Source: Aureimonas phyllosphaerae
GTDB taxonomy: Bacteria; Pseudomonadota; Alphaproteobacteria; Rhizobiales; Rhizobiaceae
Reading direction: 5' to 3'
Assembly (NCBI RefSeq): GCF_900113065.1
Contig: NZ_FOOA01000001.1
Location: 434,001 to 498,000, forward strand
Length of the DNA: 64,000 bases
Under the pieces are notes generated by a model that saw only the letters and a list, made by a program, of their open reading frames with translations, was not told where the DNA came from and did not search any database. How positions within the stretch are numbered: the first letter of the stretch is position 1; the number at the start of each line of letters is the position of its first letter. This document shows, piece after piece, positions 35,941 to 54,420 of this stretch. The position numbers and the translations under genes were made by a program.

Positions 35941-36014
35941 TGGGGAATAGTTTAAGGGTAGAACAGCGGACTCTGACTCCGCTAGTCTTGGTTCGAATCC
36001 AGGTTCCCCAGCCA
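35941..36014 (+). tRNA. tRNA-Gln (anticodon CUG)
   Basis: The 74-base gene folds as a cloverleaf. The acceptor arms are TGGGGAA and TTCCCCA with discriminator G and an encoded CCA. The anticodon stem is GCGGA/TCCGC around CTCTGAC, giving CTG for glutamine. The T arm has GGTTCGAATCC. The 3' part from the anticodon stem onward is the left copy of the 51 bp attachment repeat, so the gene stayed whole after integration of the element. Confidence 0.95.
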
Positions 36015-36018
36015 GCTT
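35968..36018 (+). repeat. attL, 51 bp direct repeat
   Basis: Identical base for base to 54370-54420. It begins GGACTCTGACTCCGC in the tRNA-Gln anticodon stem and ends four bases past the CCA, at CAGCTT. The base before and the base after differ between the two copies, which sets the limits. Confidence 0.95.
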
Positions 36019-38398: not shown

Positions 38399-39063
38399 GG
38401 CGTTGCCTCCACGGCCCGGAGGTGCGCCCGAACCGCGTCGAAGCGTTCCGTCACAGCCTGCCGCCAAGCGTCGTCCTTCGGGTCGACGCCATAGTCCGGG
38501 AAGACGAAGGCCATGACGATCGTGTCCATGTCTTCGAACAGATCGGCAGGGATCGCCTCCTGGCCGATCACCTTGCCTACTTCGTGCAACAGCCGATCGA
38601 TGAGGAAGACGACACGCGCAGCGTACTCGCCACGAGCAGCAGTCCAGTAGGCGAATCCCGCGTTTCGTCCTTCGGGCCCGAAAACCGCCGACACGTTCGA
38701 CGAGAACGCGTCACAGGCCTCCCCGAAGCGCGTGAGAAGCATCGGAATGTTATCGGCCAGGTCGGGCGTGTGCCCGATCTGCAGATCGTATTCCAACGCC
38801 TTCATCGTCAGCTGAAACCAGACGCCGCCGTGAGCCTTACCCATTTCTCGTGCCTCAGCGATCAGCCGCAAGCTCTCGGCGCGCTGCCGCGCCTCGAGGA
38901 TCTCCGATGCGCCATCGAGCGACCGGGGCGGATTAAACTGTCCATCGGTGCAGCCCGTCCGGCGCTTCGCGCGCACGACGGGACCGGCCCAGCCCGGGAA
39001 GGAAGCCAGCGGCGCTGCGCTGGCCATCGAGGAGCCGAGGAGGCTGTTCTTGAGACTGGACAT
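38395..39063 (-). CDS. Element late protein, unknown (222 aa)
   Basis: A 222-residue protein with a low-complexity start and a helical rest (LDGASEILEARQRAESLRLI). No motif is recognised. It shares one base with the end of the Ntn-hydrolase-like gene (stop and start as TGATG) and overlaps the next gene by four. Its size and place fit a virion or tail-associated part, by position only. Confidence 0.7.
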   Translation of the reverse strand: MSSLKNSLLGSSMASAAPLASFPGWAGPVVRAKRRTGCTDGQFNPPRSLDGASEILEARQRAESLRLIAEAREMGKAHGGVWFQLTMKALEYDLQIGHTPDLADNIPMLLTRFGEACDAFSSNVSAVFGPEGRNAGFAYWTAARGEYAARVVFLIDRLLHEVGKVIGQEAIPADLFEDMDTIVMAFVFPDYGVDPKDDAWRQAVTERFDAVRAHLRAVEATP

Positions 39064-39845
39064 CAGGCAGCGACCTTTGCGAGCTTGGCGGCCTTTCGAG
39101 CGCGCTTCTCGGCGGCTCGGTCGAGTGCGTCTGACGCCGCAGTGCGCGGCTTCTGAAGAGGTGGAGGCGACAGCGGGACGCCGACTTCGTCATTCCAGTC
39201 GCGCAGCGTCTCCTGCACGACGCCACGCTCTGTTACGGTCGTCAGATGAATGTGCCCGCCCACAAGAAACATCGGGGGCAAATCCATTCCTGCGATCTGG
39301 AACTTCACCCTACGCTGGGCTTCCAGAAGAACCAGGCCATGCGACTTGGGATCAAACGTATCCATCGAACTGAAGTCGCGCATCTCTGGATGATCGGCCA
39401 ACGCCAGCATGTCCTCGCCCTCGAGGGCTGGCATTTGGATGCCCTCGTCGGGATCTATGATCCGCAACTCCCACCCATCTCGACGGATGAGCATCCGGCC
39501 GATAGGTCGCCGCTCCCTTTCGGACCAACCAACGAAAACGACATCGCACAAGGCGACCCGTTCAGAATCTTCCGACACTGCAGAATGGACATCGTAGATC
39601 CATTTGAGGCGCTGGAAATCGTCCTCAATCGCGTGGTCGAGGTCGTCGTATACAATGGGGAACGACTGGGCGAACCCTTGCGTCAGATTGACATCACCGC
39701 GCGATGCCACGATCAGCCTGCACCCCTGCACAGCAAGGGCCTTGTAGTGGAAACTGTGAGGGATGCCGTCCTGCGGACTGTAAGCAGCCGTATCGGTGAG
39801 AACGAAAGCCTGCTTCTTCTGGAGGATCACGTTGATTGCGGTCAT
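39063..39845 (-). CDS. Proteasome-like Ntn-hydrolase-fold phage protein
   Basis: A 260-residue protein. Residue 2 is Thr (MTAINVILQKK). If Met is removed, Thr becomes residue 1, and numbering from it gives D17 in FVLTDTAAY and a Lys at 34 in FHYKALAV. Proteasome beta subunits use T1, D17 and K33. The strand IVASRGDVNLT fits the fold as well. The C-terminal 40 residues are Lys and Ala-rich. It follows the tape measure gene with an ATGA overlap. Activity and substrate are unknown; processing of virion proteins is one idea. Confidence 0.6.
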   Translation of the reverse strand: MTAINVILQKKQAFVLTDTAAYSPQDGIPHSFHYKALAVQGCRLIVASRGDVNLTQGFAQSFPIVYDDLDHAIEDDFQRLKWIYDVHSAVSEDSERVALCDVVFVGWSERERRPIGRMLIRRDGWELRIIDPDEGIQMPALEGEDMLALADHPEMRDFSSMDTFDPKSHGLVLLEAQRRVKFQIAGMDLPPMFLVGGHIHLTTVTERGVVQETLRDWNDEVGVPLSPPPLQKPRTAASDALDRAAEKRARKAAKLAKVAA

Positions 39846-45518: not shown

Positions 45519-46771
45519 TGGCCCGGCTCCGGGATCGGCTCGCCCGGCGCCGGCTGGACGCGCCCGGGACGCGCTCCGGCCTGGTTGATCGGAACGAGGG
45601 TGGAGTTGACGAGGTGGACGTCGCCGCCTTCGAAGCGCGGCAGATTCTCGCGGTCGGCGATCTGGTTCGGCGTGATGCCGCCGACCTGCATCAACTTCGA
45701 ATACATCTCGGCACGGCCCGCGCTGTCGGCGCGCAGGATGCCTTCGACCGTGAACTCGACGTAGAAGGTGGCGCGGTCCTCGGGCGCCAGAAGCGAACGC
45801 TTCATGGCCTGCTCGAGCCGCGTGAGATACGGGCGCAGCCCGAGGGTGAGCCAGCCGAGCATGATCTGCTCGACGCCCGAACCCCACATGGTCTGGCCGC
45901 TGGACGCATGGCCGATCAGGATCGGCGGAACGCCGAACCAGCGGCAGACCTCCTCGACATGCCATGCCCGGTTCGCCAGAAGCTCGGCGTCGCGGGGCGG
46001 CATGTTGACGGACTGCCACTCGAACCCGGCATTTCCTTCCAGAAGGAGCGTGCGCCCGGTGTTCTCGGTGCCGGTGAGCGGAGCGATCAGGGATTCCCGA
46101 ACCTGCTCGCGCTGGGCCGGCGTCAGGCCGCGTTCGCCCTTATAGGTGAGCACACCGCCGGGGCGCATGCCGTTCGCGAAGACGCGGGCGGCCGCCTCGT
46201 CGGTTGCCATCGTCGCGCCCAGCGTCTGACGGGCGTACTCGACGGTCGAGAGACCGAGATCCCCGCCGAAGCCGAAGCCCCGGACATGGAGAACCTGATC
46301 CTCATCCAGCTCGCGGACGCCGCGGGGGTCGTTCTGGCGATAGCGCAGCGACCCGGAGGCGTCGCGATAGACCTCCATCGCGTCCGGCTGCAGGATGTGG
46401 AGCGCGAGGATCCGGCGATCGTCTCGGACGATCTCCACGAAGGCGTTGCCCCAAACGAGGACGTGCGCGACGATCGCCTCGAGGAACTCGACCGGCGTCT
46501 GGTCTGCGTTCGGCGTCTCCCGCAGGAGCGCAAACAGGGGATGCCTCGGCGCAGCGTCCCGGCCGCCGTCGGCGCGGCGCTGGTAGACGCCGACCGGCAG
46601 CGTGGCGATCGTCTGCGCGATGATCCGGACGCAGGCCCAGAAGGCTGCGACCTGCATGGCCTTGGCCGGCGTGACGGTGCGACCGGACCAGCTGTCCGTG
46701 CCGAAAAAGTTCGTGAAGATGCGGCTGTCCTTCAGGCCGAAGCGCCGCGCGAGGGTGTTCAGGCCGAGCAT
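45515..46771 (-). CDS. HK97-family portal protein
   Basis: A 418-residue portal that forms the dodecameric DNA gate of the capsid. Signature stretches are AFWACVRIIAQTIATLPVGV, HPLFALLRETPNADQTPVEF, GNAFVEIVRD and FGVPPILIGHASSG, followed by ITPNQIADRENLPRFEGGD. The Pro-rich end suggests a flexible tail. The ATG shares a base with the terminase stop (TGATG), and the stop overlaps the protease start. Confidence 0.93.
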   Translation of the reverse strand: MLGLNTLARRFGLKDSRIFTNFFGTDSWSGRTVTPAKAMQVAAFWACVRIIAQTIATLPVGVYQRRADGGRDAAPRHPLFALLRETPNADQTPVEFLEAIVAHVLVWGNAFVEIVRDDRRILALHILQPDAMEVYRDASGSLRYRQNDPRGVRELDEDQVLHVRGFGFGGDLGLSTVEYARQTLGATMATDEAAARVFANGMRPGGVLTYKGERGLTPAQREQVRESLIAPLTGTENTGRTLLLEGNAGFEWQSVNMPPRDAELLANRAWHVEEVCRWFGVPPILIGHASSGQTMWGSGVEQIMLGWLTLGLRPYLTRLEQAMKRSLLAPEDRATFYVEFTVEGILRADSAGRAEMYSKLMQVGGITPNQIADRENLPRFEGGDVHLVNSTLVPINQAGARPGRVQPAPGEPIPEPGQ

Positions 46772-48432
46772 CAGGCGATCACCACGTTCTTGAGGAAGTC
46801 GTCGACGTCGACGACCGGGACTGCCTCGAAGCGCTTGGCGAGGGCGAGCGACATGACGAGGGTGACGGCCGGATCGATACGGACCGGCCCGCGGCCGTCC
46901 GACTTGGCCTTGTCGAGCTTGATGTTGCCGGCCGGATCCTTGGTCGTGATCGCGCCGGCCACCGCGGCGGTCAGAACGGGATGGCCGCCGTGCCGAATGC
47001 GGCCCGTGACGGCGAGCTCGGCGAACCAGTCGCAGGCCGGACCCATCTCCTTGAAGCCCTGGCCGAAGGGTTCGAGCGGCACGGGGAAGTCGGGATCGAC
47101 CTCGCGGAGGTCGACCTTAAACTCGTCGATCCGCCAGCGGTCGAAGCCGATGACCTGGATGTCGAACTCGCGCGCCAGACGCGACAGCTCCGACGCCACG
47201 AACTCGTAACGGACAGTCGCACCGGGCGTCGTCTCGATATGGCCGGCGCGGATCCAGTCGCGGAAGCGCTCCTGTTCAGAGGCCTGCCGATCGGCGATCG
47301 TGCCGGCGGGCGTCCAGCAGAACTGCAGGATGTCGAAGAGCGGCTCTTCCTCGTCGGACGGAAAGGCGAGCGTCAGCGACGTGAGATCGTGCTTCGCGGA
47401 CAGGTCGAGCGCGCCGAAGCACTTGCGACCGGCCAGCGACGTCCGATCCACCGGCTGGTTGCCGAGCTTCCACACGGCGCCGGTGACGATGCGGTCGTTG
47501 TCGCGCGCGTCCACGCGCTGGTTGAGGCGCAGGTTGCGGAACGACGGCTCGAATGCGGGAATACGCCGGGCGCGGGCGGCCGCTTCTCGCATCTCCTTGA
47601 GCGAGATGTATTTGCCGAGGGCCGGATTGCAGGCGAACCAAGTCGCCTCATCGAACGGATCGGCCTCCATGGGCGCCGCGATGAGCTGCACGAACATGGA
47701 CTGATCGGCCCCGGACAGCCCGTCGTCGATCATCTGCGAGAGCGGATGGGAATCATCCGGCGCCTGGGTCGAGATGATGAGCGCCAGCGCTTCCTTGCGC
47801 TTGCCTAGGCCATTCATCAGGTTGTCGAGCAGAACGCGGTTCGGTGCCTGGGCGAGCTCGTCATAAACGAACAATGTCGGCGATAGGCCGTGCGCCCGGC
47901 GCGCGTCGGCGCTCATCGCCTCGTAAATCGAGCCCATTCCGTCGCCGGACAGCACCTCGATCTTCTTCATGAAGCGCTGGATGTTCACCCTTGCGGCGAA
48001 TGCGGGCGTCTGCAGGATGATGGCCTCGATCTCGTTGAAGATCAGCGCGGCCTGGCCCCGGTCGATAGCGGCCGAATAGACCTCGCCGCGGGCCTCGGAT
48101 TCGGGCCCCAGAAGGTGCGCCAGTACGAGCCCGGCGACGAGGCCAGTCTTCCCGTTGCCTTTCGGCTCGCTCTTGATGCCGATCCGCTTCCGCCGGATGC
48201 CCTTGTCGTCGAGGTCGCCATAGATCGCCTCAACGAACTCGCGCTGCGACGACAGAAGCTTCATCTTCTTGCCGGCCAGCGGGCCTTTCGTGATCGGCAG
48301 CGACTGCAGGAACGAGATGACGCGAGCAGCACGGGACAAGCCCTTCCGCTGCCACGTCGGACGCTGCTTTTTGCCCTCTAGCGCCTCCCTTGCGAGACGC
48401 ATCTTGGCCGCCCCGGGACCGCGCATGCCCAT
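46771..48432 (-). CDS. terL: Terminase large subunit
   Basis: The DNA-packaging motor, 553 residues. The ATPase has KSEPKGNGKTGLVAGL as Walker A, LFVYDELAQA as Walker B and a coupling motif IISTQAPD. The nuclease half has acidic residues in GALDLSAKHDLTSL, VIGFDRWRIDEF and DPAVTLVMSLA. It is of the HK97/Terminase_1 type. No small terminase gene is seen beside it, only the HNH gene, which is unusual. Stop and start bases are shared with both neighbours. Confidence 0.93.
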   Translation of the reverse strand: MGMRGPGAAKMRLAREALEGKKQRPTWQRKGLSRAARVISFLQSLPITKGPLAGKKMKLLSSQREFVEAIYGDLDDKGIRRKRIGIKSEPKGNGKTGLVAGLVLAHLLGPESEARGEVYSAAIDRGQAALIFNEIEAIILQTPAFAARVNIQRFMKKIEVLSGDGMGSIYEAMSADARRAHGLSPTLFVYDELAQAPNRVLLDNLMNGLGKRKEALALIISTQAPDDSHPLSQMIDDGLSGADQSMFVQLIAAPMEADPFDEATWFACNPALGKYISLKEMREAAARARRIPAFEPSFRNLRLNQRVDARDNDRIVTGAVWKLGNQPVDRTSLAGRKCFGALDLSAKHDLTSLTLAFPSDEEEPLFDILQFCWTPAGTIADRQASEQERFRDWIRAGHIETTPGATVRYEFVASELSRLAREFDIQVIGFDRWRIDEFKVDLREVDPDFPVPLEPFGQGFKEMGPACDWFAELAVTGRIRHGGHPVLTAAVAGAITTKDPAGNIKLDKAKSDGRGPVRIDPAVTLVMSLALAKRFEAVPVVDVDDFLKNVVIA

Positions 48433-48872
48433 CAGCGCGAGCCCTCCGTCGGGCGAACTAACTCAGTCTCGAATTCCCCGACCGGTCCCGACCCCCTAGA
48501 GGCGCTGACTTTCGACTCCCCCCGCCCCTGGGGGCGCGCGGCGGCGATCTCGACGGGGGTCGCCCGGTTGAAGGGGTGGTTCGGGTCGGTCGGCAGCCCG
48601 GAGGCGTCGACGCGCGACGCATAGCCTCGCCGTTCGATCTGTTGGGCGTCGGCGTTGTGATGCGTCTGGCAGAGGCCGACCCAGCGCGTCCGATCCCAGA
48701 ACAGGGCCGGATTGCCACGGTGCGGCGTCGAATGGTGGACGTGCTTGGCGGGCTTCATATGCCCATCGCGGTGGCACCAGGCACACCACGGGTTTGCGGT
48801 CAGGAACTCGCGACGAGCCACATCCCAGTTGCGATCGTAAAGACGTTGGCGGGCGTTCGGACGACGGTTCAC
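48432..48872 (-). CDS. HNH endonuclease of the packaging module (GTG start)
   Basis: A 146-residue protein with a zinc-bound HNH fold: CAWCHRDGHMKPAKHVHHST, then WDRTRWVGLCQTHHNADA. Such enzymes next to terminase and portal genes help the terminase cut DNA in HK97-like phages. The second GTG was chosen as start because GAGG lies seven bases before it; a first GTG is six bases earlier. It is the first late gene after the iteron-like region. The C-terminal 60 residues are disordered. Confidence 0.88.
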   Translation of the reverse strand: MNRRPNARQRLYDRNWDVARREFLTANPWCAWCHRDGHMKPAKHVHHSTPHRGNPALFWDRTRWVGLCQTHHNADAQQIERRGYASRVDASGLPTDPNHPFNRATPVEIAAARPQGRGESKVSASRGSGPVGEFETELVRPTEGSR

Positions 48873-49025
48873 GCGCACACCTCACGGGTGGCACGTCCAA
48901 GATGATAACCGATGTTCCGACAGCGTAGCGCCATACGAGACATATGGTGGAAAGCAACGGCAGCGACAAACGCTGCGATTTTATTTTTAAATCCGCAATT
49001 TAATACTGCGGCCGATCATTGGCCA

Positions 49026-49293
49026 CCCTAGTCACCCTAGTCGGAACCCTAGTCACCCAAAGCCATATGCCGCAGGGGTTTGAGCGTCCTGGCAAGGGTG
49101 ACTAGGGTGACTAGGGTATATTCAGCAAATAGTCTGAGATGGTACATCTGCTCGGTACGCAGACGCACGCACGTATGAAAACGAAAAGGGCCCTAGTCAC
49201 CCTAGTCACCCTTGCCAGCCGTTGTTTTGCAGGGGTTTCAGGGCTCTAGTCACCCTAGTCAGCACCCTAGTCACCCAAGGCAGCACCCTAGTC
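49026..49293. repeat. Iteron-like region, ten CCCTAGTC words
   Basis: CCCTAGTC occurs perfectly at 49026, 49035, 49047, 49191, 49200, 49253, 49265 and 49286 on plus, and as GACTAGGG at 49100 and 49109. One imperfect copy is at 49244. Many are in pairs nine bases apart, giving the 9 bp unit CCCTAGTCA. The last copy contains the primase-helicase stop codon. The region is between that gene and the HNH gene, a gene-free 415 bp. Repeats like this mark replication origins or operator arrays. Confidence 0.85.
49089..49218. repeat. 28 bp perfect inverted repeat inside the iteron region
   Basis: Arms 49089-49116 and 49191-49218 are exact reverse complements. Each holds two CCCTAGTC words and ends in TTGCCAG. 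The 74 bases between them are less GC-rich than the surroundings (for example TATTCAGCAAATAGTC and ACGTATGAAAACG). Two GCAGGGGTTT copies lie just outside the arms. Confidence 0.85.
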
Positions 49294-51843
49294 GGCGTGC
49301 GTCGGCTCAGTGGTTACGCCGAAAGCCTCGCGCACGTGAGGCAGGGCCGGGAAGCGGTAGACCGTGACCCGTTCGTCTCCTCCCATGCGCTGCTGTCCCG
49401 ATAGCTTGCCGTGCTTGGCACCCAAGGCAGCCGATAGCTTTATGCCAATCTGGACCATGCCCTCGACGGGCTCACGCCGCTCCTTGCTCCATCGCTCATA
49501 GTCGCGGAAGAAGTCGCCCTTCTCGACCACGACGGGACTGCTCTCCCAAGGCTCGCCAGCAGGGCCGCGATAGGCGTTGCCTCGCTCAAGGATCTCAGCC
49601 CAATAGAGGTCGAAGCCCGTCAGAGAGGCGCGCTTCTGCTGCGCCAATGCCTCGGTCGCAGGAGGCGTTCGAACGTCGAAACCGGTCAAGTCGATCGCTT
49701 CTAGGTACTTTCGCAGCGCCGCAGGGCCGAGGCCGTTCATCTCAGCGGCAAGCTCTGCGAAATAGGCGGATTGCCTCTGGCGTTCGTTGGAAACGCGCAG
49801 CACGAAGTAGCGCCGCTCGTCCTGCGTAGCTGGCACGATCCAACCTTCGTTCGACGTCACCAGAAGGCGCAGGAACGACTTCTGGCTCGGGTCCGCGTCG
49901 ACACCTTTCTGCTCTTCGATCTGGTTCGGATTCGTAATGAGCGACTTTAGCAGACCGTCGTCCATCTTGCTTTTCCCGGCCCAGCCCAGTTCCTCGACGT
50001 GCAAAAGGAGGCACGTCGCCAAGTGGGCGTTGAAGTTGCCCGTCATGTGCCGCTGCTGGGCCGTATTCGTATAGAAGCGAGGGAGCATGCGGCCGACGTA
50101 ATAGCCGAGGCTGTCTTTGCCTGTTCCTTTGCCACCCTGAAGGATGACCGCTACCCCCGGCTTGTCGCCAGGGTGCTGAACCAGATGCGCGAGCCAGCGC
50201 AGCAGATAGGCGGCATGTTCCTTATTGCCGGCGCAGACGACCTCCTCAATGTGGCGCAAGATCAGCTGGCATTGCGCGCCGTCAGCGACGACCTCGTCTT
50301 CTCCCCGAAGGCGCGGGAAGCCTCGCCAGCGGTTGTAGACGCCCGGCTCCACACCGTTCGGATCGAAGGCCCAGCCGCCGCGATAGAACCGCCGAGCCGG
50401 GTGCGCTTCCCAAGCGTCATAGCGCGGGGCCTTCTGGTTGCCCTGCAAGACCGGATTGGGAGCGTAGGAAGAACGCAACGACTTCGCGGACGACTTGCTC
50501 ACCGAGCCGTCGTCCTCCTCGGTGATAGGGAAGGTGTCGCCCCGGTGTTCAATGATCGCGTGCCGCTTGTTCATCTCGCGCACCCACAGAGGCGCAGCGT
50601 CGTCTGGCCGGTCCCCGAACAGCGGCGTGACGTTGCCCGCCGGCTCTCCCAATGGGATTCCAGCCAGGATGCCGTCGCCCTGATCGTCGATCGGCTCGAA
50701 CCATTCTTCCATCATCGTGGCGACCGGTCGCCAGTCCGGTTTGAACTTGCGCAGTTCCTTTTCCAGCGAACCACCGAACACGTAGCGCGGGGGATACCGG
50801 CAGTAGTTCTCCCAGCGAGCCTTGGTTACCTCAGGACTGTAGGCCGAAAGCGTCGCCTTAGCCGACCACGCCTGAAACGCCTCGTAGCCGTCCTCGCTGG
50901 CGTGCGAGACGTCGAAGAGCGTCATCCCGATCTTGTTCCATCGGTTCCAGTTATCGAAGTCGTTCGGCAGGATGGCCACGGCGGATTGCAGGTCCGCCAC
51001 AGCCCAAGGGCGCTCCGTCCGAAAGTTGTCGCGCGGCCGGGACGACATGCGCAGGATGTCGTCCACGGTGAGGCCCTTGGCCTCGAGCGCCTCGGTCACG
51101 TTTTCTAGGGCGACGCTCAGCGGAACGTCGCGATCATCGTTCAGCTCGACGATGCGGCAGAGCCGCGGTTCGTCCTTCGTGTGCCAGGAACCAGGAAGCC
51201 GCATCGGGTGCCCGATCGAGACGCCAGACGTGTCGCCCTCTACGAGTGCGCAGGCCCGGTTGCGAACGTCTTTAAGCTTCGCCAGATCTGCGCCCACGGC
51301 TGGCTTGTCGAGCCGCCAATATGCGTGGATTTTCCTCTCACGATAGCCGCTCTCATCGGTCCAGATACCACCGGACTCGACGATGATGGTCGGCTTTCCG
51401 AAGACAGCCTCCAGATCTCGGCGCGCCTGGGCGGGGTGCTTGTCGATCTCGACCGCGATTACCGGTGCGAAGACGACGTTGTCGTCACCTTCGAACGGAT
51501 TCTCGGTGAGCGTACCGTCTTCTCGGACCTTTTTTTGATCGCCGAAGCCGCAGATCCGCATGGCGACGGTCTGCCCGTTGTCGCCGGCGCCGGCCTGCGC
51601 AGCGCCGGTCGCGATTGTCGCCATCCACCCAGCAAGATGCGCTGTGTCGACGCGCTCGCCAATGGGAGCGTAGAACGGCCGCGCCCAAGCGTTCTCAGCC
51701 TTGTTGTTCGAGTAGACGCCCACGGCAAGCGTCATCCGATCCTCGGGCGTCGCATGCTTGAAGATCGCTCGCAGAAACCGCTGGGTCTCTTCCGCATCGC
51801 CCTTGGTTTCGAGCGGGGAAGGCGCTAGAATAGTTGCAGCCAA
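49288..51843 (-). CDS. Primase-polymerase/SF3-like helicase replication protein (TTG start)
   Basis: An 851-residue protein. The N-terminal prim-pol region has acidic E132 and D134 in VIAVEIDKHP, H173 in KIHAYWRL and GVSIGHPMRLPGSW. A PriCT-2-like domain lies at about 280-350 (DNWNRWNKIGMTLFDVSHAS). The helicase part, like the DUF5906 region of phage NrS-1 polymerase, has Walker A GGKGTGKDS (570-578) and Walker B-like LLLHVEELGWAG. It is likely to start and unwind replication of the element. AGGAG precedes the TTG by six bases. The iteron region starts at its stop. Confidence 0.85.
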   Translation of the reverse strand: MAATILAPSPLETKGDAEETQRFLRAIFKHATPEDRMTLAVGVYSNNKAENAWARPFYAPIGERVDTAHLAGWMATIATGAAQAGAGDNGQTVAMRICGFGDQKKVREDGTLTENPFEGDDNVVFAPVIAVEIDKHPAQARRDLEAVFGKPTIIVESGGIWTDESGYRERKIHAYWRLDKPAVGADLAKLKDVRNRACALVEGDTSGVSIGHPMRLPGSWHTKDEPRLCRIVELNDDRDVPLSVALENVTEALEAKGLTVDDILRMSSRPRDNFRTERPWAVADLQSAVAILPNDFDNWNRWNKIGMTLFDVSHASEDGYEAFQAWSAKATLSAYSPEVTKARWENYCRYPPRYVFGGSLEKELRKFKPDWRPVATMMEEWFEPIDDQGDGILAGIPLGEPAGNVTPLFGDRPDDAAPLWVREMNKRHAIIEHRGDTFPITEEDDGSVSKSSAKSLRSSYAPNPVLQGNQKAPRYDAWEAHPARRFYRGGWAFDPNGVEPGVYNRWRGFPRLRGEDEVVADGAQCQLILRHIEEVVCAGNKEHAAYLLRWLAHLVQHPGDKPGVAVILQGGKGTGKDSLGYYVGRMLPRFYTNTAQQRHMTGNFNAHLATCLLLHVEELGWAGKSKMDDGLLKSLITNPNQIEEQKGVDADPSQKSFLRLLVTSNEGWIVPATQDERRYFVLRVSNERQRQSAYFAELAAEMNGLGPAALRKYLEAIDLTGFDVRTPPATEALAQQKRASLTGFDLYWAEILERGNAYRGPAGEPWESSPVVVEKGDFFRDYERWSKERREPVEGMVQIGIKLSAALGAKHGKLSGQQRMGGDERVTVYRFPALPHVREAFGVTTEPTHAD

Positions 51844-52831: not shown

Positions 52832-53125
52832 GTGAAGCGCAAATTTTTGGATCAGTACCAGTTGCGCATGCCAGAGGGCCTCCGTGACCGCATCAAGCTG
52901 GCCGCAGACGCTGCGGATAAGAGTATGAATCTCTTGATCGTTGAGACCTTGGAGGCTGCTTTTCCCGATGAGAAAGAACAGCTTCGTGCGGCTCTAAGGC
53001 TCTTGGACGCAAAAATCGCTGAACTGCCGCCAGAGCGACAGGCTCCACTGCTCGAATTCCGGAAACAGCTTTGGGTTGACCTCTGGTATGAACCTCTCCC
53101 GCGCGAAGAGGACGACGACCAGTGA
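52832..53125 (+). CDS. Arc-type ribbon-helix-helix DNA-binding protein (GTG start)
   Basis: A 97-residue protein. Residues 6-46 (QYQLRMPEGLRDRIKLAADA, then DKSMNLLIVETLEAAF) match the Arc/MetJ fold: a DNA-contacting strand with QLRMP, then two helices. The C-terminal half is acidic and helical. The GTG was chosen because GAGGTGG lies just upstream; a TTG 33 bases earlier would add 11 residues. It is the only transcription regulator seen in the element besides the excisionase-like gene, so it is the candidate repressor. The stop overlaps the integrase start. Confidence 0.8.
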   Translation: MKRKFLDQYQLRMPEGLRDRIKLAADAADKSMNLLIVETLEAAFPDEKEQLRAALRLLDAKIAELPPERQAPLLEFRKQLWVDLWYEPLPREEDDDQ

Positions 53126-54360
53126 GCGTCCGTAAGCGTAAATGGACGAATGCCGACGGCACGACCGGATCAGGCTGGCAGGTCGACTATCGCGACGCCG
53201 CAGGGACGCGCCGGTCGAAGAGCTTCAAATTGAAGCGCGACGCCGATGTCTTCGCCAACACGACGGCCGTCGAACTGAAGGACGGGACGCACGTCCCCGA
53301 CGCTGCAACCGTGACAGTCGCGGAGGCCGCCGACCTATGGCTTAAGAGCTGCCGAGACGCCGGCCTCGAGCAGTCGACGATCAAGCAGTACGGCGAGCAC
53401 GTTCGGCTGCATCTGGTGCCCTTCATCGGCGCCACGAAGCTGACGAAGATCAGCGTGCCAGGGGTGCGGGCATTCCAGGAGAAGCTGCGCGAGGCGGACC
53501 GATCGAGCGCCATGATTAAGCGCGTGACGGTGTCGCTGGGCTCAATTTTGTCCGATAGCCAAGAGCGCGGCCTCGTCGTCAGGAACGCCGTATCCGAGAT
53601 GGCCAAGCGCCGCGGATCCGCGAAGAGCAAGGTCGAGAAGCGGCAGCGCGGCCGCCTGCGCTACGGCATCGACATCCCGACGATGGACGAAGCCCGCGCC
53701 TTGATCGCCGCTGCCGAGGGGCGCCATAGGGCGTTCATCCTGACGATGGTGTTCACCGGCATGCGATCGTCTGAGCTGCGAGGCTTGTCGTGGCCGGACG
53801 TCGATTTGCGCAAGGGTTTGCTGCATGTGCGCCAGCGTGCCGATGCCTTCCAAGACATCGGTATGCCGAAGAGCGACGCCGGCCAGCGGACGATCCCCCT
53901 CCTCCCGCTCGTGGTCGAAGCACTGACCGAGTGGAAGGCGGAGTGCCCGAAGGGCGAACTCGGGCTCGTCTTCCCAACGGAGACGGGGCGACCTCAATAC
54001 CATGCGAACATCGTGTCCCGCATCGTGCAGCCGCTCGTCGTCAAAGCCGGGCTGACGATCGACACGGGTCGGATCGATGCTGACGGTCAACCGATCCTTG
54101 AGCCTCGCTATAGCGGCATGCACGCCTGGCGCCACTGGAACGCCTCTTGGCTTCTGAACGCGCGCGAGGTCGGTGGCCTTGGCCTGCCTCCGAAGGCAGT
54201 CCAAGCGCGTCTTGGGCACTCCTCGATCCAGATGACATACGACACGTATGGGCACCTGTGGCCGACGAACGACGAGGCGTCGGCGATGGCTGAAGCGCAG
54301 GCGCTTTTTCTAGGCGCAACAGTCATGCAACAAAACGACGTTGAAGCCCGCAAAATATAG
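53122..54360 (+). CDS. int: Tyrosine recombinase (phage integrase, GTG start)
   Basis: A 412-residue integrase that recombines attP with the tRNA-Gln attB. It has an N-terminal arm-binding domain (KRKWTNADGTTGSGWQVDYR), a core-binding SAM-like domain at about 65-160 and the catalytic domain. Active-site residues are R215 (FTGMRSSELRG), K250, H334 and R337 (HAWRHW), H366 (LGHSS) and nucleophile Y376 (YDTYGH). The GTGA overlap links it to the ribbon-helix-helix gene. It ends 9 bp before attR. Confidence 0.95.
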   Translation: MSVRKRKWTNADGTTGSGWQVDYRDAAGTRRSKSFKLKRDADVFANTTAVELKDGTHVPDAATVTVAEAADLWLKSCRDAGLEQSTIKQYGEHVRLHLVPFIGATKLTKISVPGVRAFQEKLREADRSSAMIKRVTVSLGSILSDSQERGLVVRNAVSEMAKRRGSAKSKVEKRQRGRLRYGIDIPTMDEARALIAAAEGRHRAFILTMVFTGMRSSELRGLSWPDVDLRKGLLHVRQRADAFQDIGMPKSDAGQRTIPLLPLVVEALTEWKAECPKGELGLVFPTETGRPQYHANIVSRIVQPLVVKAGLTIDTGRIDADGQPILEPRYSGMHAWRHWNASWLLNAREVGGLGLPPKAVQARLGHSSIQMTYDTYGHLWPTNDEASAMAEAQALFLGATVMQQNDVEARKI

Positions 54361-54369
54361 TCTGCGCAG

Positions 54370-54420
54370 GGACTCTGACTCCGCTAGTCTTGGTTCGAAT
54401 CCAGGTTCCCCAGCCAGCTT
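54370..54420 (+). repeat. attR, 51 bp direct repeat
   Basis: A perfect copy of 35968-36018. It holds only the 3' part of tRNA-Gln, from the anticodon stem, with no 5' half, so it is not a second tRNA gene. The 200 bp up to the LysR gene show no other feature. Confidence 0.95.

Follow-up and report, generated by a model that had tools for sequence, protein, structure and literature searches.

The stretch considered here is a 64,000-nucleotide window of the Aureimonas phyllosphaerae genome (RefSeq assembly GCF_900113065.1, contig NZ_FOOA01000001.1, positions 434,001 to 498,000), and within it an integrated element of about 18.4 kb that carries an array of short repeats directly 3′ of a primase-helicase gene. 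The element is bounded by a 51-bp direct repeat and is integrated at a tRNA-Gln gene (35941-36014). From its right end inward come an integrase gene, small open reading frames (ORFs) that include an Arc-like regulator, and the primase-helicase, then, beyond the array, an HNH endonuclease and the terminase large subunit, and beyond these portal, head protease, capsid and tape-measure proteins (Table 1). What does the array do?

The array is built of iterons. The word CCCTAGTC has ten exact copies, all within 49026-49293 and none elsewhere in the window (100 shuffles: mean 0.57, maximum 3), in agreement with a preliminary description made from the letters alone, but these words are the visible portion of a 9-bp unit, CCCTAGTCA, with 14 array sites at up to two mismatches (shuffles: mean 1.1, maximum 6) and, at up to one mismatch, just two window sites outside the array. 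The commonest 8-mer of the intergenic region 48879-49290 occurs nine times, against a maximum of three in 1,000 shuffles, and all three copies of the 17-mer CCCTAGTCACCCTAGTC in the 4.71-Mb genome lie inside the array. The same description had placed two pairs of words in 28-bp inverted arms 74 bp apart; the arms are indeed 100% complementary (49089-49116 and 49191-49218), whereas their content is three plus three opposed iterons in exact 9-bp steps, the outermost iteron of each arm being a common degenerate copy, CCCTTGCCA. These inner blocks are flanked by three further iterons on the primase-far side and five on the primase-near side. The final site shares bases with the primase-helicase stop codon, so the region, described earlier as gene-free, is so only for 48879-49287. 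With a GC content of 46%, where the array has 55% and the window 67.5%, the spacer is less GC-rich, as had been said, yet not AT-rich.

When searched by BLAST among phages and plasmids, the array matched only at E ~3. Viral contig IMGVR_UViG_2829876606 (L007/L009) has the same array together with the same protein and probably represents this very element; two further viral contigs from an exact-word search (L004, L005) gave one two-word match each without an array, which we took as chance.

Table 1. Features of the element, in window coordinates (gene boundaries are those of the longest open frame, and start codons are therefore uncertain)
Feature	Position	Strand	Remarks
Whole iteron array, proposed origin	49026..49294	.	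14 sites with at most two mismatches to CCCTAGTCA
Primase-near inner block	49191..49217	+	Three iterons at 49191, 49200, 49209 (third is CCCTTGCCA)
Primase-far inner block	49090..49116	-	Three opposed iterons at 49090, 49099, 49108
Spacer, candidate unwinding zone	49117..49190	.	74 bp, 46% GC
Alternating purine-pyrimidine run	49163..49177	-	15 nt, CATACGTGCGTGCGT (minus strand)
Outer iterons	49026..49055	+	At 49026, 49035, 49047
Outer iterons	49244..49294	+	At 49244, 49253, 49265, 49274, 49286; last overlaps primase stop codon
Primase-helicase, proposed initiator	49288..51843	-	851 aa; PriCT_2 + DUF5906 + VapE-like
Predicted winged helix, proposed iteron-reading domain	49321..49533	-	Residues 771-841
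HNH endonuclease	48432..48878	-	phrog_2323; downstream of array
Terminase large subunit	46771..48432	-	TerL_ATPase + TerL_nuclease
Integrase	53122..54360	+	Phage_integrase family
Proposed attL	35968..36018	+	51-bp direct repeat overlapping tRNA-Gln
Proposed attR	54370..54420	+	Other copy of the 51-bp repeat

Arrays of this kind, which the preliminary description had suggested seeking near related replication genes, are found 3′ of homologous genes with differing words. Homologues came from 397 genomes of the order (51 of them, counting this one, have the protein), 385 genomes of the class (20 have it), viral contigs, named phages, and a genome-contig scan that gave 45 named loci, nearly all from Alphaproteobacteria, 36 of them scorable. 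A proximal array was called where at least four exact 8-mers lay within 450 bp 3′ of the gene, exceeding all 100 shuffles; the census omits genes shorter than 400 aa (five, on genome contigs) and 3′ flanks below 250 bases, and L026, L032, L040, L041, L092 and L176 were excluded for a short flank. By this rule an array lies 3′ of the gene at 33/36 genome-contig loci, 18/25 order loci, 13/75 viral contigs, 4/10 class loci and 1/10 named phages, whereas the 5′ side gives 0/36, 0/14, 0/69, 0/5 and 1/10, respectively. Pooled, 69 of 156 scored loci have an array, or 61 of 140 distinct C-termini (the sets overlap, and 14 groups have a common C-terminus).

A looser rule gives 67 array loci with 59 distinct C-termini, and 49 of these 59, the strict set, have at least two tandem iterons in both of the opposed blocks, which lie 57-157 bp from each other, as paired by a script that may err at some loci other than the window's, whose orientation and blocks were set by hand. 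The word varies by group: AGGTTGGACA (as at L138), AGGTAGGACA, AGGTGGGGCA, AGGTGGTGCA, CATCTGGACCA, GCCTAGAC, ACCTATGAC, ACGTGCAGCA, CCTGTTAA and others, with ACCCTGACCA at L054 (one word survey omits L154, L166, L172, L182, L185, L187, L189-L191 and L193-L196). Words compared in the same block-relative orientation have a mean similarity of 0.502, against 0.346 when reversed, and are the more similar in 834 of 1176 pairs. Two plasmids carry such arrays. A 9.7-kb circular Roseomonas plasmid shows equal anatomy directly behind its DUF5906 gene, with nine exact copies of ACCCTGGA (shuffled maximum 3); apart from that gene, no Pfam replication family was found in the nine of its ten listed genes that were scanned, and a 169-aa protein weakly like a terminase ATPase, below the cut-off, suggests that the plasmid may be of phage descent. 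Plasmid pMP1 has five exact copies of ATGGAAAA (shuffled maximum 3); its right block counts three units in 9-bp steps, and its left side is less regular. At L066/L069, six copies of CTGTGACC on the 3′ side of the helicase gene are accompanied by a seven-copy 8-mer within 700 bp on its 5′ side (the flank repeat survey that covers these loci omits L100, L119 and L124).

Unexpectedly, many of the spacers contain a long tract of alternating purines and pyrimidines. Over 59 loci the longest such run averages 12.7 nt; dinucleotide shuffles give 7.1, and coding and downstream controls 6.6 (Wilcoxon p about 1e-9 to 1e-8). At 37 of the 59 loci, no more than 5 of 100 shuffles match the observed run; for the 15-nt run of the window the figure is 2 of 100. 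In the strict set, 37 of 49 loci have a run of at least 10 nt, and 30 of these 37 start within 20 nt of the primase-proximal block, where 10.4 would be expected. The spacer third beside the far block is AT-richer (0.566 vs 0.433, p = 2e-5, 49 strict loci). Some loci, such as L016 and L030, lack the tract; the longest observed, an unbroken 49-nt run, lies between the inverted blocks of L168 in a spacer of 70 bp. Alternating purine-pyrimidine tracts can take the Z-DNA form under negative supercoiling.

The adjoining protein looks like a plausible reader of the iterons. Its predicted structure resembles solved hexameric helicases, consistent with a hexameric SF3-type helicase fold, and residues 771-841 are modelled as strands and helices of a C-terminal winged helix, with 10-residue pLDDT means of 87-95; NCBIfam returned no match to the protein. 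Across relatives, iteron similarity tracks the similarity of the winged helix (partial r 0.402, with 0 of 999 permutations as high, in tests that remove shared ancestry only partly) and does not track that of the helicase domain (partial r 0.005, 441 of 999 permutations), and it is on this covariation that we base the proposal that the protein binds the iterons. The set that stays constant across relatives is helicase, winged helix and array, whereas the primase part varies: L138 and L151 have helicases of 496 and 549 aa and a separate upstream gene of the CHC2 zinc-finger/Toprim type.

We conclude, with a probability of roughly 0.87, that the array is the replication origin of this prophage and that the adjoining primase-helicase is its initiator. 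An origin had been the first suggestion of the preliminary description, and the 3′ arrays at the named loci, the winged-helix covariation, the 9.7-kb plasmid and an exchange of terminases discussed below all support it. How might such an origin fire? We infer, on the pattern of SaPI Rep, P4 alpha and phage Sfi21, that the C-terminal winged helix binds the 9-bp iterons and that copies of the protein on the two inverted three-iteron blocks would assemble into two helicase rings, one on either side of the 74-bp spacer and turned towards each other. This spacer would then open, aided by the alternating tract on one side and the AT-richer part on the other, and the rings would unwind outward in a bidirectional start, with the N-terminal primase part laying the first primers. 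The outer iterons may load extra protein or limit copy number.

Several observations weigh against this interpretation. The preliminary description had named, as one finding that would tell against an origin, relatives that keep the gene without the repeats, and this applies in part: of the 156 loci scored, 87 have no array close to the gene, among them 62 of 75 viral contigs, 9 of 10 named phages and, from the named genome set, L160, L162 and L173. We rescanned 81 of these 87 over their fetched flanks, six class-search loci falling outside the scan, requiring five or more exact 8-mers in a 350-bp stretch, a rule that weak arrays escape; 62 show no array in the fetched flank, and 19 have some array elsewhere, shuffled controls giving none. 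At least four of the rescanned loci, among the eight of the 19 that were inspected individually, have the same anatomy 2.3-3.2 kb further 3′: L042 (the cultured Rhizobium phage RHph_X2_30), L054, L058 and L063. The array can therefore lie at a distance from the gene and is perhaps absent from some relatives. Of the nine named phages without an array, six have their next annotated gene starting within about 215 bp of the primase, and four of these six have a DNA polymerase gene nearby upstream; the phages AAT-1, Donnerlittchen and YB23 have a gap of 488-699 bp and still no array by the rule. The Rhizobium plasmid pTH2c has the gene with no array found, and M. nodulans pMNOD07 has degenerate repeats only, with no excess over shuffles. 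Other tandem repeats, at L059 and L093 (16-bp and 12-bp steps), were judged not origin-like; the 12-bp repeat of L093, around ATCGTGTC, sits 3′ of the gene at a distance of about 3.1-3.3 kb. In the RHph_X2_30 record each end carries a different cluster, eight copies of CTGTGATC at about 50-400 of L202 and eight of CTTGGACC at about 34750-35100 of L203; the second, which is the one inspected, has origin anatomy.

Further points on the same side come from the array, the protein and the element. A 16-mer of the array occurs in one of 394 family genomes, this one. The spacer is just moderately AT-rich, and iterons agree a little more closely when mirrored than when not (7.12 against 6.62 of 9), which leaves room for a hairpin role. 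In the covariation test the linker scores too, and common descent may account for part of the signal, having been only partly removed. The origin could also be a relic, given that the element is small and has few recognised tail genes. Among its scanned proteins none could be recognised as a small terminase, a connector or a major tail protein, so that at about 18.4 kb it may be defective, or else a compact capsid-forming element. The idea that it might be a satellite is not supported: it has its own terminase, portal, protease, capsid and tape-measure genes, and is therefore classed as a prophage. Beside the tape-measure gene, a 260-aa protein (39063-39845) weakly matches phrog_13702 (E 7e-6), whose terminase large subunit label is odd for a protein in that position.

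Among the alternatives, the one that fares best, and which we nevertheless consider unlikely, is a stem-loop origin of the pRN1 type, in which the protein would recognise a large hairpin and not iterons. Plasmid pRN1 needs a 100-nt stem-loop downstream of orf904, whose protein has a C-terminal winged helix, and a similar loop occurs in phage BIP-1, recognition of the hairpin having been proposed (PMC4234260, in the part of the text available). The window's 28-bp arms are predicted to fold strongly when single-stranded (-43.2 kcal/mol, z -9.1), and the slightly closer agreement of mirrored iterons points the same way. However, perfect 27-bp arms are present at merely 7 of the 49 strict loci, additional iterons lie outside the hairpin, the stem itself is made of iterons, and so are the arms of the phage BPP-1 inverted repeat described below.

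Two other readings, both raised in the preliminary description, have become less likely because the array keeps to the helicase gene and its word covaries with the winged helix. That the array is a packaging start (cos or pac), where terminase would recognise the repeats and begin packaging, strikes us as very improbable. It does lie just upstream of the HNH and terminase genes, and viral contig L006 has the same word immediately before its small and large terminase genes. But the type of repeat is not tied to one type of terminase: arrays remain by the helicase gene at L138, L151, L068, L057 and L168, where the terminases are gpA-type and not, as in the window, TerL_ATPase/TerL_nuclease. No terminase was found at L142 or L153 among the flanking ORFs scanned, which did not cover every ORF; the recognisable downstream genes of L153 are for transport and metabolism, and L142 has an integrase about 3.8 kb downstream. 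The Roseomonas plasmid also carries the array, with no more than its weak terminase-like remnant. We give scarcely any weight to an operator array, bound by a late-gene repressor or activator that would control transcription through the HNH and terminase genes, since, even with the array upstream of these genes in the direction of transcription, an Arc-like gene in the element and tandem operators known to exist, the recurring opposed blocks with a 57-157 bp spacer are unnecessary for an operator, the downstream genes differ among relatives, and the covariation points to the helicase protein. The same protein could, alongside origin function, regulate its own gene.

If the array is the origin of this prophage, it may exemplify a broad class of origins used by primase-helicase initiators, a generalization that we offer tentatively and would not yet rely on. 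Such a class would have a single geometry, with inverted 9-bp iteron blocks, an alternating tract by one block and an AT-richer part by the other, and freely diverging words; the co-change of winged helix and iteron would perhaps amount to a readable recognition code, the tract perhaps to a supercoil-driven, Z-DNA-prone opening element for GC-rich hosts, and the pRN1 and BIP-1 stem-loops perhaps to the same design viewed apart from its iterons. In the open-licence literature, which leaves most subscription papers outside, we found no description of the shared layout, the covariation or the central tract, and among papers on the words CCCTAGTCACC and GGTGACTAGG none concerns a phage origin by its title. 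The recurring geometry with diverging words, the winged-helix covariation and the central tract are the points likely to interest specialists. An anonymous repeat becomes a testable origin common to many elements, and the 49 initiators of the strict set, each naturally matched with its own iteron word, together with a covariation that maps to a single small domain, make sequence recognition by initiators of this class open to direct study. The layout also offers a way to seek origins in prophages and plasmids with DUF5906 helicases, and the central tract raises the question of how such origins open in GC-rich genomes.

The locus would fall with the known downstream iteron origins of P4-, SaPI- and Sfi21-type initiators. 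The run-off replication origin of Bartonella was set aside, as the helicase there is described as a Twinkle homologue in the accessible part of the source (PMC2697382). From SaPI, with its Rep protein and origin, and SCCmec, with Cch2 and downstream repeats (PMC7581432, as far as the accessible text goes), the window's element differs in carrying its own head genes, and SaPI5 chains show 9-11% identity to its initiator over the aligned part. Phage P4, a positive control, has 8-bp repeats annotated on the 3′ side of its primase gene and no more than 350 bp from it, some of them paired at 9 bp; in the crr 3′ of alpha the same script counts five copies of GGTGAACA against a null maximum of four, a narrow excess. 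The P4 alpha protein binds its repeats through a winged helix and has, unlike the window's, a Toprim-type primase (PMC4234260, in part). P4 differs too in that its crr contains two 120-bp direct repeats and that it has another repeat region at a distance of about 4.5 kb. In Streptococcus phage Sfi21, likened here by origin layout and likewise a positive control, the annotated origin immediately follows a putative primase gene on its 3′ side and sets two tandem 8-bp blocks in opposition across an AT-rich spacer: GTAACTAA or its complement stands at 63, 71, 150 and 158 (null maximum 3), so that the word and the 8-bp step differ from the window's. Repeats of CTAGTCACC, the same 9-bp word as the window's, occur in viral contigs L006 (1-84), L008 (2332-2493), L010 (543-712) and L011 (13036-13200), in the last three as opposed blocks around AT-rich spacers. 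The window's protein has no match in the fetched stretches of L006, L008/L011 and L010, and L011 encodes a DUF5906 helicase remotely similar to it; the sharing of CTAGTCACC may reflect convergence on a word or a common ancestor.

With pRN1 and BIP-1 the locus shares an element downstream of a gene for primase, helicase and winged helix, essential in pRN1 and appearing as a large inverted repeat. It differs in that the window's stem is built of iterons, whereas no iteron-type origin is reported for pRN1 in the accessible part of PMC4234260. Phage BPP-1 (L205) has, 469-573 bp 3′ of its primase gene, an inverted repeat with two tandem 9-bp units in each arm (four copies against a null maximum of three, a narrow excess). 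The spacer between its inverted pairs holds CATACGTGTACATG, the whole being similar to the origin anatomy, and the gene order of BPP-1, primase, endonuclease and then terminase, resembles that of the window. Since the arms of the BPP-1 repeat are tandem 9-bp units, the stem-loops of the pRN1 and BIP-1 type may, by analogy, themselves be opposed iteron blocks.
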